Shown piece by piece: positions 4,130 through 60,079 of a stretch of DNA of 60,079 nt. Within the stretch, counting starts at the first letter, position 1, and each line of letters opens with the position of its first letter. A program made the position numbers and the translations under genes. This DNA comes from Oceanospirillum beijerinckii DSM 7166 (lineage in GTDB: Bacteria > Pseudomonadota > Gammaproteobacteria > Pseudomonadales > Halomonadaceae). The notes under the pieces were generated by a model. That model did no database searches, had not been told where the DNA came from, and saw only the letters and a list, made by a program, of their open reading frames with translations. The stretch spans positions 1 to 60,079 of the forward strand of contig NZ_AULT01000042.1 of the NCBI RefSeq assembly GCF_000422425.1, given 5' to 3'.

Positions 4130-5581
4130 CTATTGTGCGGCTTGCTCCTCAGCTTGTGCCTGAGCACGTAGCTGAGCTTCTTTGATCGAGTCTTTAGGGC
4201 TGTTATCCCAGCCAATCACCTTTTCGATCTGTTCGGCGATATCCAGAATGGCGGCATCGGAACCTAATGGTCCGGATAATTGAATCGACAGTGGCAAACC
4301 TTCATCGCCAAGCCCCATAGGTTGAGCCAGGGCAGGCATACCGGTCAGGTTGGCGTCATAGAGGAAGGTTACCCAGTCCAACCAAGGGTTAGTGATCTTG
4401 GTAGAGCCGACATATTTCGGATAACGACGGGTATGGGAAAACGCTTCCATGCCCAGAGTGGGAGTTAGAAAGAAAGAGGAGCCATTACGCTCAAACATCG
4501 ACATATAAGCAGCATGAATCACTTCACGGTGCTCTTCCGCCGCTTCGAATTCGTGATCCTTCATACTGGCACCAAACTGCAGTGTTTCTATGGTGCTGGC
4601 TTCCAGACCTTCCAGTGGCGCAGGTTTTTCTTTCTGGAAGCTCCAGCTGTCATAGTGCGCCGAGGTAGCCCAGGCAATTACAGATGAAGGTAAGTTGGGT
4701 TGGTCGTAGGCAATTTCCGCACCGGCTTCTTCCAGCATACGTACGGTCATACGGAAGGTCATACGTACATCGTCATCAATGGGAGCAAAACCCAGGTCTT
4801 CCGATACGATAATCTTCTGACCGGCCAGCGTCATAGGATGCCGGGCGTGAGCAGCCAGAGAATCAACATAAGCCTTATCATTATTATTAGCGGCGACCAC
4901 GGAGAACATCAGACGGGCATCGGCAACACTACGTGCCATAGGGCCGTAGGAAACAATGGTGCTCCAGGATGGGAAGCAAGGCTCTCTTGGTACCGCTTTA
5001 AAAGAGGGTTTAAAGCCGACAATACCGCAGAAACCCGCGGGGATGCGGATAGAACCACCGCCATCACCACCCAGTGACAGTGTGCCTGCACCGGCGGCTA
5101 CAGCGGCCCCGGCACCACCGGAAGAACCACCACAGGTACGCTCTGCGTTCCAGGGATTGGTCGTTACACCGTTCAGCTCAGAAGACGTGGTACCGGTCAG
5201 ACAAAATTCCGGGCAGGTGGTTTTGGCAAAAATTACCGCACCGGCTTCTTCCAGGCGACGTACCGCAGCGCTGCTCTCTTCAGGAATAAAATCGATCTGT
5301 GTTTTGGATGCGTTAGGGCTGGGTACACCCGCCATCCATTGGGAGTCCTTTACCGTAATCGGCAGGCCGCACAAACGACCGCCCAGGCCTTTGGCTAACA
5401 GCTCATCGGCTCTGGCCGCTGCCACACGGGCACGATCATACAGTTTGATGGAAAAAGGGTTGTAGGCCTGGGAGACGTGTTCGGCGTGCTTGATGGTTTC
5501 TTCCAGCAGCTCAGTGGCCGTTATTCGGCGATGACGCAGATCTGCCAGCAGTTCGATTGCCGTTTTATTGATCACGTTCAT
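4130..5581 (-). CDS. Amidase (amidase-signature family)
   Basis: A 483-residue amidase-signature enzyme. The Ser-cisSer-Lys triad is readable: K78 in LPITVKDSQW, the GGSSGG serines at 153-154, and S177 in GGDGGGSIRIPAGFCG. The family hydrolyses carboxamides, including aryl, fatty and small amides, and occasionally transfers the acyl group. The N-terminal TAIELLADLRHRRITATELL helix is typical of the family. ATG 5581 was preferred because AGGG lies 8 bases before it. An open extension to 5818 is probably leader DNA. It is the first gene of the amidase, C45 hydrolase, ATP-grasp cluster and is divergent from the unknown gene at 5817. Substrate not predictable. Confidence 0.88.
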   Translation of the reverse strand: MNVINKTAIELLADLRHRRITATELLEETIKHAEHVSQAYNPFSIKLYDRARVAAARADELLAKGLGGRLCGLPITVKDSQWMAGVPSPNASKTQIDFIPEESSAAVRRLEEAGAVIFAKTTCPEFCLTGTTSSELNGVTTNPWNAERTCGGSSGGAGAAVAAGAGTLSLGGDGGGSIRIPAGFCGIVGFKPSFKAVPREPCFPSWSTIVSYGPMARSVADARLMFSVVAANNNDKAYVDSLAAHARHPMTLAGQKIIVSEDLGFAPIDDDVRMTFRMTVRMLEEAGAEIAYDQPNLPSSVIAWATSAHYDSWSFQKEKPAPLEGLEASTIETLQFGASMKDHEFEAAEEHREVIHAAYMSMFERNGSSFFLTPTLGMEAFSHTRRYPKYVGSTKITNPWLDWVTFLYDANLTGMPALAQPMGLGDEGLPLSIQLSGPLGSDAAILDIAEQIEKVIGWDNSPKDSIKEAQLRAQAQAEEQAAQ

Positions 5582-57670: not shown

Positions 57671-57748
57671 CAAATGGGCAAGTTGGGGGTGAGACAGAGG
57701 AGATTGCGGGGTTGGAGAAGGGAGCGCAGCTAGGGCTGCGCATACCAA

Positions 57749-58174
57749 TCAAATAGTAAGTGAAAATTTCAAATTCTTAACGCTAAGAGTTGCTTTTGTC
57801 TGTTTTTGAAAGTCAATACACTTTCTCCTCACCGTAGAACCATGCTTTGGTATTCTTGTTGTTACTACATAGCACTCTTTTTGATGCTCATTAAACCTTT
57901 TTCTCGTTAGATTTAAGGTTGATTTTAGTTGTGATATAGCCTTATCTAAATCACAACCCTTTAATTCAACAAAGAGCGCTTTTTTACTTGGATCGTCGTA
58001 TTCAATTATCCAATCACACTTCTCGTTTTTTTCATCAAATAGACAGCCATCGACTTGTATCTTGCTAACATATTTACGTTTTGAGTTTGAGACTTCAAAT
58101 CTGCTTTTATTTTCCTTAACTACAATTTTTGGATCATTACAACGGATACTGCATCTATCATAAGGGCAACACAT
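57749..58174 (-). CDS. Cysteine-rich protein with PD-(D/E)XK-like signature, partner of the ATPase
   Basis: A 141-residue protein, not matched to a named family. It opens with a cysteine cluster (MCCPYDRCSIRC; C2, C3, C8, C12) suggestive of a zinc or Fe-S site. The middle has the form of a PD-(D/E)XK nuclease core: D54 in KCDWIIEYDD, then E70-x-K72 in ALFVELKGCDLDKAISQL, with a following helix carrying Q82. It starts one base after the stop of the ATPase gene, with GGGAG upstream, so the two are certainly co-transcribed. AT-rich codon use sets both apart from the surrounding genes. An effector nuclease of a two-gene defence system is the most attractive reading, but is an inference from one short motif. 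Confidence 0.7.
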   Translation of the reverse strand: MCCPYDRCSIRCNDPKIVVKENKSRFEVSNSKRKYVSKIQVDGCLFDEKNEKCDWIIEYDDPSKKALFVELKGCDLDKAISQLKSTLNLTRKRFNEHQKECYVVTTRIPKHGSTVRRKCIDFQKQTKATLSVKNLKFSLTI

Positions 58175-58175
58175 A

Positions 58176-59471
58176 TCAGTTATCTCCCAAGGTAAGGAGC
58201 TGATTCATAACATTCTCAAAATGCCCTGAGATGTCATCCAACATATCACCACCGACCATCCGATATTCATCATCACAAATTGATTTGCTGACCCCCGACT
58301 CAATTGTATAAGCAGATACATCTTCAAACTTAATAGGCTTCCCACCACCGTTTAACTTTGCAAACTCACTTTCTGAAATCCCTCCACTTCTAACCACATC
58401 AGAGGCTAAAATAAAGTTATTTAATGCCGACAAGATATATGGGCTGTGAGAAGTAATGAAAAAATTAGTAGACAAATGTTCATAAAGGAGAGACAAAATA
58501 GAAACAATATGACCTTGAGAGGTTGGAAACAAATGAGCTTCCGGTTCTTCGATGAAAAACATGCCATGTTCACTATTCCTATTTTTTATAAGAGGAAGTA
58601 TACATAGGACTAGTAGCATGGGCAGTGATTCTTGCTGCCCAGATGAAGCATTTGCTAAATTAATTTTTTTCCCTTTCGAAACGATCCAATCTTGCTCATC
58701 ATGATATTCATAATCTCCACTTACAATTGCTTCAAGCGACTTGCTGAGCTCATCTGCAAGCCCTTTATTACGACGAAATAAGAAGCCATCCTTATACATT
58801 CTTTTTGAATTTTCATAAAGACGTCCAAAGTCTTTCAAGAAAGGATCTATATCTAAATTAGAAGCTAGAAATGTAAAAATATTTTTTTGCAAGTTTGCAA
58901 AAAAAGATCGTGTTGCTGGGATAAAGACAGAATCTGAGAAAAAACAGGAATACTCGCTCTCCCTTAAAGGATCTAAAACACATTCGTATAACACCATATG
59001 CTCTAAATCTACTATCCTACCTCTCCTGCCTTCTTGCTCCATGTATTGATCGAAGCGCTTTTTATAGGATCTCTTCTTATTTAAAAAAATTCTTGCCAGA
59101 TCACTACAGTATTTAACTTTAACACGAGTTTTACCTCTACTATTTCTTTCTCCATATATAGATATTGATATACCGCCGATAAAGTAATCTATTTCAAAAG
59201 AACTGCCATCCCAAGAGTATCTAGGAAACTTACTCTCAAAGCTCTCAACAATAGTTTTATCTAATTCTTTTTTCGTTATTTGCTTTCTAATACTATCAAC
59301 AAAATTAGCTGATAATTCTTGAAAAAAATATACTAACTTCGCAATAACACTCTTACCATTAGCTTGAGGGCCAATAACAACGTTAACTTTCTTTATGTCC
59401 ATATCAACTTTCTTTAAGACTAGAAAGTTTCTTACTTTAAGCTGTTCTCCCACAGCCCCCCCTACCAACAA
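58176..59471 (-). CDS. AAA/SMC-like ATPase (AAA_21, OLD-like without TOPRIM)
   Basis: A 431-residue ABC/SMC-type ATPase: N-terminal strand pair (LKVRNFLVLKKVDMDIKKVN), Walker A G34-to-S41 (GPQANGKS), signature S276-SGQQ (NASSGQQES), Walker B (MFFIEEPEAHL; E308/E309) and the H-loop H342 (FFITSHSPYIL). A 230-residue insertion between Walker A and signature holds the coiled or recognition region. No TOPRIM domain follows. Related ATPases drive many phage-defence systems together with a nuclease or other toxin. The start is uncertain: TTG 59471 opens the frame, GTG 59453 is inside, and an ATG-ATG at 59477-59482 is out of frame by one base across a run of seven G. It is followed directly by the PD-(D/E)XK-like gene. 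Confidence 0.82.
   Translation of the reverse strand: MLVGGAVGEQLKVRNFLVLKKVDMDIKKVNVVIGPQANGKSVIAKLVYFFQELSANFVDSIRKQITKKELDKTIVESFESKFPRYSWDGSSFEIDYFIGGISISIYGERNSRGKTRVKVKYCSDLARIFLNKKRSYKKRFDQYMEQEGRRGRIVDLEHMVLYECVLDPLRESEYSCFFSDSVFIPATRSFFANLQKNIFTFLASNLDIDPFLKDFGRLYENSKRMYKDGFLFRRNKGLADELSKSLEAIVSGDYEYHDEQDWIVSKGKKINLANASSGQQESLPMLLVLCILPLIKNRNSEHGMFFIEEPEAHLFPTSQGHIVSILSLLYEHLSTNFFITSHSPYILSALNNFILASDVVRSGGISESEFAKLNGGGKPIKFEDVSAYTIESGVSKSICDDEYRMVGGDMLDDISGHFENVMNQLLTLGDN
59456..59462 (-). repeat. Seven-G homopolymer at the ATPase N-terminus
   Basis: On the coding strand a run of seven G follows ATGATGGTTCTTGTTGGTA. With six G the ATG would be in frame with the ATPase; with seven it meets a stop soon after. 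It may be a slippage-prone switch or mark a wrong base count in the assembly. Confidence 0.6.
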
Positions 59472-59801
59472 GAACCATCATACTACTACGGCTGATATTA
59501 AACCTTAATCTCATAATTACAAATTACCACACCTCATACCTAAGGCCACCTAGGGAAAACCCTAGCATTGATACCTATCCCACTGAAAAGTTAGACAAAA
59601 ACCGATCAAAAATAGCAGAAAAACTGACATAAATTATTTAGAAAAGCACCAAACCAAGCAGTACCGACAATATATGTCGCAACGACATCAGATGGAACAT
59701 TCAAATCAGGACAGCCATTATTTAGAAAAACGCCAAACCAAGCCCGTGTTCTAACTGGAAGTGCACCACTATAGTTAAATCAACTAGCAAGGAGGTGCAT
59801 T
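59472..59801. other. Intergenic region between the ATPase cassette and the IS30-type element
   Basis: AT-rich, no gene. It carries the promoter of the ATPase gene, a 27-bp direct repeat (59633-59659 and 59717-59743) and, in its last 60 bases, the probable terminal repeat of the IS30-type element, whose exact end cannot be fixed from one side. Confidence 0.6.
59633..59743 (+). repeat. Direct repeat (27 bp, 24 identical) beside the IS30-type element
   Basis: ATTATTTAGAAAA followed by CCAAACCAAGC occurs at 59633-59659 and 59717-59743, differing only in three central bases. The second copy ends about 58 bases before the transposase start. Confidence 0.85.
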
Positions 59802-60079
59802 GTGGGAAAGAATTATTCGCATTTGAGTCATTGTGAAAGAAAGCGGATTTTCCATTGGTTTCATTATCAAAAGAGACCAATTCGTGAAATAGCGCGCCTG
59901 CTCAGTCGCTCACACTCAACAATTAGTCGTAAACTTAAAAGGAACATCAGTACTCACTACGTGCCAACTTATTACCCTAACCCTGCCCAGAGAATGTACC
60001 AAATGAGGATGAGTAGAAGGGTTCAGAGGCAAAAATTGAAAGATCACGAAACCAGAGAGTACGTTACTGCAAAACTTAA
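59802..60079 (+). CDS. IS30-family transposase, N-terminal part, cut by window edge
   Basis: A GTG-initiated frame (AAGGAGG eight bases upstream) runs 92 codons to the end of the window. It begins GKNYSHLSHCERKRIFHWFH and has the IS30-type helix-turn-helix RPIREIARLLSRSHSTISRK followed by LKRN, then YVPTYYPNPAQRMYQMRMSR. This is the classic HTH_38 domain of IS30 transposases ('L...ER..I......G.S.R.IA..LGRS.STISRE..RN'). The DDE catalytic domain lies outside the window. Confidence 0.9.
   Translation, partial: MGKNYSHLSHCERKRIFHWFHYQKRPIREIARLLSRSHSTISRKLKRNISTHYVPTYYPNPAQRMYQMRMSRRVQRQKLKDHETREYVTAKL

Follow-up and report, generated by a model that had tools for sequence, protein, structure and literature searches.

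A probable WonAB-type ATPase–nuclease gene pair in Oceanospirillum beijerinckii

Introduction

Near the end of a contig of Oceanospirillum beijerinckii DSM 7166 (assembly GCF_000422425.1, contig NZ_AULT01000042.1) lie two adjacent AT-rich genes, one for an ATPase and the other for a small protein, which raise the question of which defence system, if any, they represent and how they might act. An earlier description made from the letters alone, hereafter the sequence-only reading, regarded them as a transferred defence module and implied that the module was new, unless the pair mapped to an already named system. We analyzed positions 1 to 60,079 of the contig (the window; 60,079 nucleotides) and found that a named system very probably accounts for the pair, namely WonAB, which was published in 2025 from the Vibrio cholerae WASA-1 prophage (PMC12137116). 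The two genes are as follows.

58176..59453, minus strand: WonA-like OLD-type ABC ATPase, 425 amino acids from GTG 59453 (assigned from Pfam AAA_15, aligned starts, residue positions and the ATPase tree)
57749..58174, minus strand: predicted WonB-like small PD-(D/E)XK nuclease, 141 amino acids, 16.5 kDa (assigned from PDC-M29B, invariant residues and AlphaFold2)

Results

The gene pair closely resembles WonAB

The gene for the small protein begins one base downstream of the ATPase gene. Whereas the sequence-only reading was correct about both open reading frames (ORFs), their coordinates and this spacing, its TTG start for the ATPase (58176–59471, 431 amino acids from TTG 59471) is less likely than GTG 59453. 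We judged the 425-amino-acid form to be the most likely reading from the sequence, because GTG 59453 aligns with the GTG starts of two relatives (L001 and L009; relatives are denoted by locus numbers throughout) and has a G-rich run directly upstream. The possibility of chance ORFs was ruled out by profile matches and conservation.

The ATPase matched Pfam AAA_15 (7.9e-23) and AAA_21 (6.9e-11), and all the motifs previously noticed in it were found: Walker A (GPQANGKS), the signature (SSGQQ), Walker B (EEPE) and the H-loop (HSPY). The earlier label 'SMC-like' is loose, as the protein is an ABC ATPase of the OLD type and its SMC_N match (0.0016) is below the Pfam cut-off. A PADLOC search, which had been proposed as a check, gave AriA (3.8e-24) and PDC-M29A (3.3e-21, 74 bits) as the best matches of the ATPase, and PDC-M29B for the small protein.

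WonA is reported to be an OLD-type ABC ATPase with the essential residues K34, R182, E300 and H333, and WonB a 16.1-kDa PD-(D/E)xK nuclease with the essential residue K71 (PMC12137116). We compared these published positions with those of the window pair. Counted from the GTG start, the ATPase has K34 (the Walker A lysine), R182, E303 and H336, and the small protein, at 16.5 kDa, has K72. In both cases, a two-gene operon begins with the OLD-type ABC ATPase, followed by the small nuclease gene, and a PD-(D/E)XK fold is predicted for the effector. The two pairs differ in that the window pair lies on a chromosomal contig and is flanked by an insertion sequence, whereas WonAB is prophage-borne, and in the R-to-E spacing, which is three residues longer in the window.

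WonA, the window ATPase, L009 and the Escherichia coli relative L034 share a K-to-R spacing of 148, whereas L001 has 142. Of the pairs outside this clade, leaving aside two PtuA-type rows, 11 were compared: the spacing ranged from 79 to 155 in seven and was never 148, it was 97 in L010, and three yielded no value. The E-to-H spacing of 33 carries less weight, as L016 outside the clade shares it and L034 has 35. The E. coli pair itself has K33, R181, E301 and H336, with K71 in a small protein of 16.1 kDa. On this evidence, which is good but circumstantial and comes from published residue positions and sizes, the pair is very probably a WonAB homologue; because it resembles WonAB so closely, we assign it to this known system and not to a new one.

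Such pairs have been noted elsewhere. Operons of an OLD-ABC ATPase and a nuclease with a restriction-enzyme fold were listed before WonAB, according to two papers citing that work (PMC12137116, PMC12839542); the second of these, from 2026, reports PD-(D/E)XK nucleases as partners of OLD-ABC ATPases in the neighbourhood of BREX (PMC12839542), and a review summarizes WonAB (PMC12409358).

Two observations were made on the Walker A motif of relatives. L009 (1917–3188), an otherwise intact close relative, has glutamine in place of the lysine (GQQAQGQS). In the Bacteroides ATPase of L010 (4740–5957), the annotated start at 4881 removes Walker A, which is present in the longer frame.

The small protein is a predicted PD-(D/E)XK nuclease

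In an alignment of 16 small proteins, including that of the window, D42, C53-D54, E70-L71-K72, Q82 and L130 were invariant, so that the D54...E70-x-K72 motif pointed out earlier is not only present but also conserved. The four clustered N-terminal cysteines, described in the same reading, are present as well (C2, C3, C8 and C12) but are particular to the window protein: each of L001, L003 and L009 has just one, and the first 20 residues are free of cysteine in three of the 16 rows (L006, L010 and L011). Since this cluster is not conserved, there is no conserved metal site in it, and we dropped a zinc-binding N-terminus as a conserved feature, given that the cysteines vary among relatives.

The AlphaFold2 model suggested as a check (mean predicted local distance difference test score, pLDDT, 87.4) resembles PD-(D/E)XK nucleases; its structural neighbours include FokI, BsmI, EcoT38I, EndoMS and MUS81-EME1. 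As modelled, the protein appears to have both the core fold of the superfamily and D...ExK on the central strands. At the sequence level, the small protein matched no Pfam family above the cut-off and no NCBIfam family, and PDC-M29B (7.6e-8, 30.6 bits) was the only PADLOC family matched up to E = 1. A sequence-profile search of the PDB with the small-protein family gave matches at the level of chance, the best being mitochondrial complex III subunits (E = 0.045).

The pair is distinct from other known systems

PADLOC contains a candidate phage-defence system, PDC-M29, that is similar to the window pair in gene order and in the types of ATPase and nuclease, and both of its profiles match the pair. 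We considered whether the pair is a full member of PDC-M29 and not of WonAB. Three clear PDC-M29 pairs (L007, L011 and L019) scored 380–488 bits on the A profile and 125–161 bits on the B profile, whereas the 74 and 30.6 bits of the window pair are five to nearly seven and four to five times lower, respectively. Furthermore, the K-to-R spacing of these systems is 91–92, compared with 148 in the window, and the B profile gave no match at E = 0.001 in a search of the source genome. In the ATPase tree, the window grouped with L001 and L009 (support 100/100) and then with the E. coli L034 (99/98), while L007, L011 and L019, together with L020 (for which there was no PADLOC scan), formed a separate clade (100/99). 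The small-protein tree was poorly resolved: the window grouped with L001 and L003 (82/94), and L009 and L034 were placed elsewhere with poor support. The window pair therefore neither scores like the clear members nor groups with them in the ATPase tree, and full membership is quite improbable; PDC-M29 represents remote relatives of the WonAB-type pair in PADLOC. We found no mention of PDC-M29 by name in the literature searched.

PD-T4-4 and PDC-M47 also combine an ATPase with a PD-(D/E)XK-like partner, and one locus of each (L018 and L017, respectively) was reached by the profile of the window family. However, their partners are larger (206–207 amino acids in L017 and L018), and the window small protein matched neither PD-T4-4_B (up to E = 1) nor PDC-M47B.

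PARIS, Septu and Gabija likewise use an OLD-type or related ABC ATPase as a sensor, and AriA of PARIS is the best PADLOC match of the window ATPase. Their effectors differ, being TOPRIM (AriB), HNH (PtuB) and helicase (GajB) proteins, respectively, none of which was detected in the window pair. PARIS was rejected since PDC-M29B was the sole PADLOC family matched by the partner at E values up to 1 and the model of the partner resembles PD-(D/E)XK proteins; Septu since the small protein matched neither PtuB in PADLOC nor any Pfam family above the cut-off; and Gabija, in which the ATPase is fused to TOPRIM and accompanied by a UvrD-like helicase, since all Pfam matches of the window ATPase are of the ATPase type and its downstream neighbour is the 141-amino-acid protein. 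These results agree with the earlier view that the effector lies outside the HNH, TOPRIM and UvrD-helicase types.

A separate observation concerns six genomes of the window's family (L021, 1423–1929, and L022–L026), in which an ATPase precedes a protein of roughly 166–173 amino acids with the D-CD-ELK-Q signature. The ATPase of L021, the one scanned among the six, is of the Septu PtuA type by PADLOC, and the two partners scanned (L021 and L025) matched no PADLOC family. The L021-type locus resembles a Septu system in which the sensor is kept and a WonB-like effector replaces the HNH protein PtuB.

Relatives occur patchily and are consistently paired with an ATPase

The closest relatives of the small protein were found in Pseudomonas grimontii (L001, 56% identity), a contig of a viral collection (L003, 58%) and a genome of the same family (L009, 37%); more distant ones occur in gut contigs (L004 and L005), Bacteroidota plasmids (L006, L010 and L011) and further genomes. 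A tblastn search of a phage collection with the small protein matched only two gut contigs, and no record labelled as WonAB turned up. Scans of viral contigs with the alignment of close small proteins recovered only the L003 contig again, and nothing related was obtained when L004, L005, L006 or the ATPase alignment served as query. Among sampled genomes, with the source genome counted in, the small protein occurred in 1 of 369 genomes of the class (the same with the single protein and with the 16-row profile), 2 of 293 of the order, 7 of 398 of the phylum and 10 of 121 of the family, where the phylum and family counts take in the remote types (PtuA-linked L021–L026, PDC-M47 L017 and PD-T4-4 L018).

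When the DNA of both window genes was used in a distant search of 5,426 E. coli genomes, two genomes gave matches that covered 6% of the query and fell inside an ATPase gene. The annotation shows a gene pair at that place, and a search with this E. coli pair found it in 10 of the 5,426 genomes. In E. coli E24377A (L034, 5962–7709; NC_009801), the genes of this WonAB-like pair are annotated only as an AAA family ATPase and a hypothetical protein, and in this strain, the only one viewed, they lie in a P2-like prophage, with replication gene A on one side and a partial portal gene on the other.

The neighbourhood survey suggested in the sequence-only reading confirmed that the two genes co-occur. 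An ATPase ORF lies directly upstream on the same strand in all 23 assessable relatives (out of 24 distinct ones, including the window; L003 could not be assessed at its contig end, and L008, described below, was left out). With the exception of L034, which was found with the DNA of both genes, the relatives were selected through the small protein or its family, so that the ATPase played no part in their selection. The gap between the genes ranged from –14 to +8 bases in 15 pairs.

Two further arrangements were observed among the relatives. In two loci of one genus (L038, 4954–8858; L039, 3125–6986), the pair lies upstream of an elongation factor G-like gene (a label from a Pfam run on L038 only), at a distance of 26–27 bases, and the other flank differs between the two. 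In L041 (2961–4690 and 8107–9864), a PDC-M29 pair and a second pair of ATPase and small protein share one locus, which we take to resemble an O-antigen locus, the second small protein presumably resembling a RloB-type TOPRIM protein.

The pair was horizontally acquired

Two further features describe the surroundings of the pair.

57690..59741, strand not assigned: AT-rich segment carrying the pair, absent from this site in the sister genome G1062 (from the comparison with that genome and composition)
59742..60079, plus strand: IS30-like insertion sequence, of which only the left part precedes the contig end (from a second genomic match and HTH_38)

The GC content of the pair is 34.6%, and the GC content at third codon positions (GC3) of the two genes is 0.27 and 0.30, compared with a mean of 0.527 (standard deviation 0.033, minimum 0.473) in the 24 other window ORFs of at least 300 amino acids, which bears out the earlier remark that their AT-rich codons are unlike those of their neighbours. 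The similarity of the window to G1062 ends at 57689, just past an M19 dipeptidase gene, and the small-protein profile had no match in G1062 or in four other genomes of the genus. On the other side, similarity of the window to a second site of the genome starts at 59742, where the left boundary of the insertion sequence can be placed; the partial ORF from 59802, whose remainder is beyond the contig end, has an HTH_38 domain, consistent with the IS30-type neighbour reported before. Around this left end (59626–59743), two 34-base direct repeats are 85% identical, with starts 84 bases apart. The pair is horizontally acquired, and the proposal of a transferred ATPase–nuclease module of the defence type is upheld.

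These data also bear on the alternative that the pair is domesticated and has taken on a housekeeping function such as DNA repair. One relative, L008, which we recognized by eye and take to be the housekeeping protein YraN, was reached only by the PDC-M29B profile (8.2e-4) and has no ATPase within its 3.2-kb locus. A profile comparison with YraN, using 3 of 19 YraN loci, reached a score of 21.8, while 100 column shuffles gave at most 18.3; the match is weak, with an HHalign probability of only 7.6% over 21 columns, and covers the active-site strands only. Against such a role, the occurrence is patchy, the base composition is foreign and the pair is absent from the sister genome, while all catalytic residues are kept; conservation at one locus throughout the genus would favour such a role, but the five other genomes of the genus that were searched had no match. 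In addition, some relatives lie beside restriction-modification systems or in a prophage: L009 has type I restriction genes nearby, L011 has a GmrSD gene on one side and a type III restriction system on the other, and L034 is in the P2-like prophage. A housekeeping role is thus highly improbable.

Discussion

A possible mechanism by analogy with WonAB

According to the published description, both activities of WonAB are required and infection is aborted after the replication of phage DNA has started; WonB is toxic only in the presence of WonA, genomic DNA stays intact and translation stops, and the authors suggest tRNA or rRNA as the target (PMC12137116). The same mechanism is expected for the window pair because of its probable homology to WonAB, and by this analogy we infer that the window copy works in the same way. 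The OLD-type ABC ATPase would probably dimerize around ATP and hold or stabilize the small nuclease, serving as a sensor of infection that is activated in an ATP-dependent manner by phage replication. The activated ATPase would license the PD-(D/E)XK nuclease (D54, E70 and K72), which may bring translation to a halt, most likely through cleavage of tRNA or rRNA, and the cell would stop before phage particles are assembled.

Alternatively, the pair might be a restriction-like system directed against DNA, in which the ATPase finds foreign or damaged DNA and loads the nuclease, leaving the host unharmed. PD-(D/E)XK nucleases often cut DNA, and the structural neighbours of the small-protein model listed above fit such a role. 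However, WonAB is reported to leave the genome intact while phage DNA replicates and translation stops (PMC12137116), and PARIS and Septu, which have related ATPases, are described as cutting tRNA (PMC13096335); we hence regard a DNA-directed system as unlikely.

The surroundings of several relatives speak against defence genes as the general setting of such pairs. L010 lies in an annotated surface-polysaccharide locus, and L041 and L042 lie in loci judged from their ORFs to be of the same kind; L038, L039 and L040 are among apparent housekeeping genes, and no defence gene was recognized in the neighbourhood of L037. We consider it likely that the pair is a horizontally acquired abortive-infection cassette of the WonAB type, with the ATPase as the sensor and the nuclease as the component that stops translation.

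Implications for the WonB-like family

The results extend the recently described WonAB defence system to another bacterial lineage and indicate that the conserved effector core is D-CD-ExK-Q, not the cysteine cluster. Relatives occur outside Vibrio, and the one in E. coli offers a route through laboratory strains to the RNA target and the trigger. We tentatively raise the possibility that WonB-like proteins form one effector family coupled to several distinct sensors of the OLD and Septu types (WonA, PDC-M29A, PD-T4-4_A and the PtuA-like ATPase in six genomes of the window's family), all of these effectors acting as metal-dependent PD-(D/E)XK RNases that stop translation. If this were true, the effectors would have an RNase role that is uncommon for this fold, which is known chiefly from nucleases that cut DNA.
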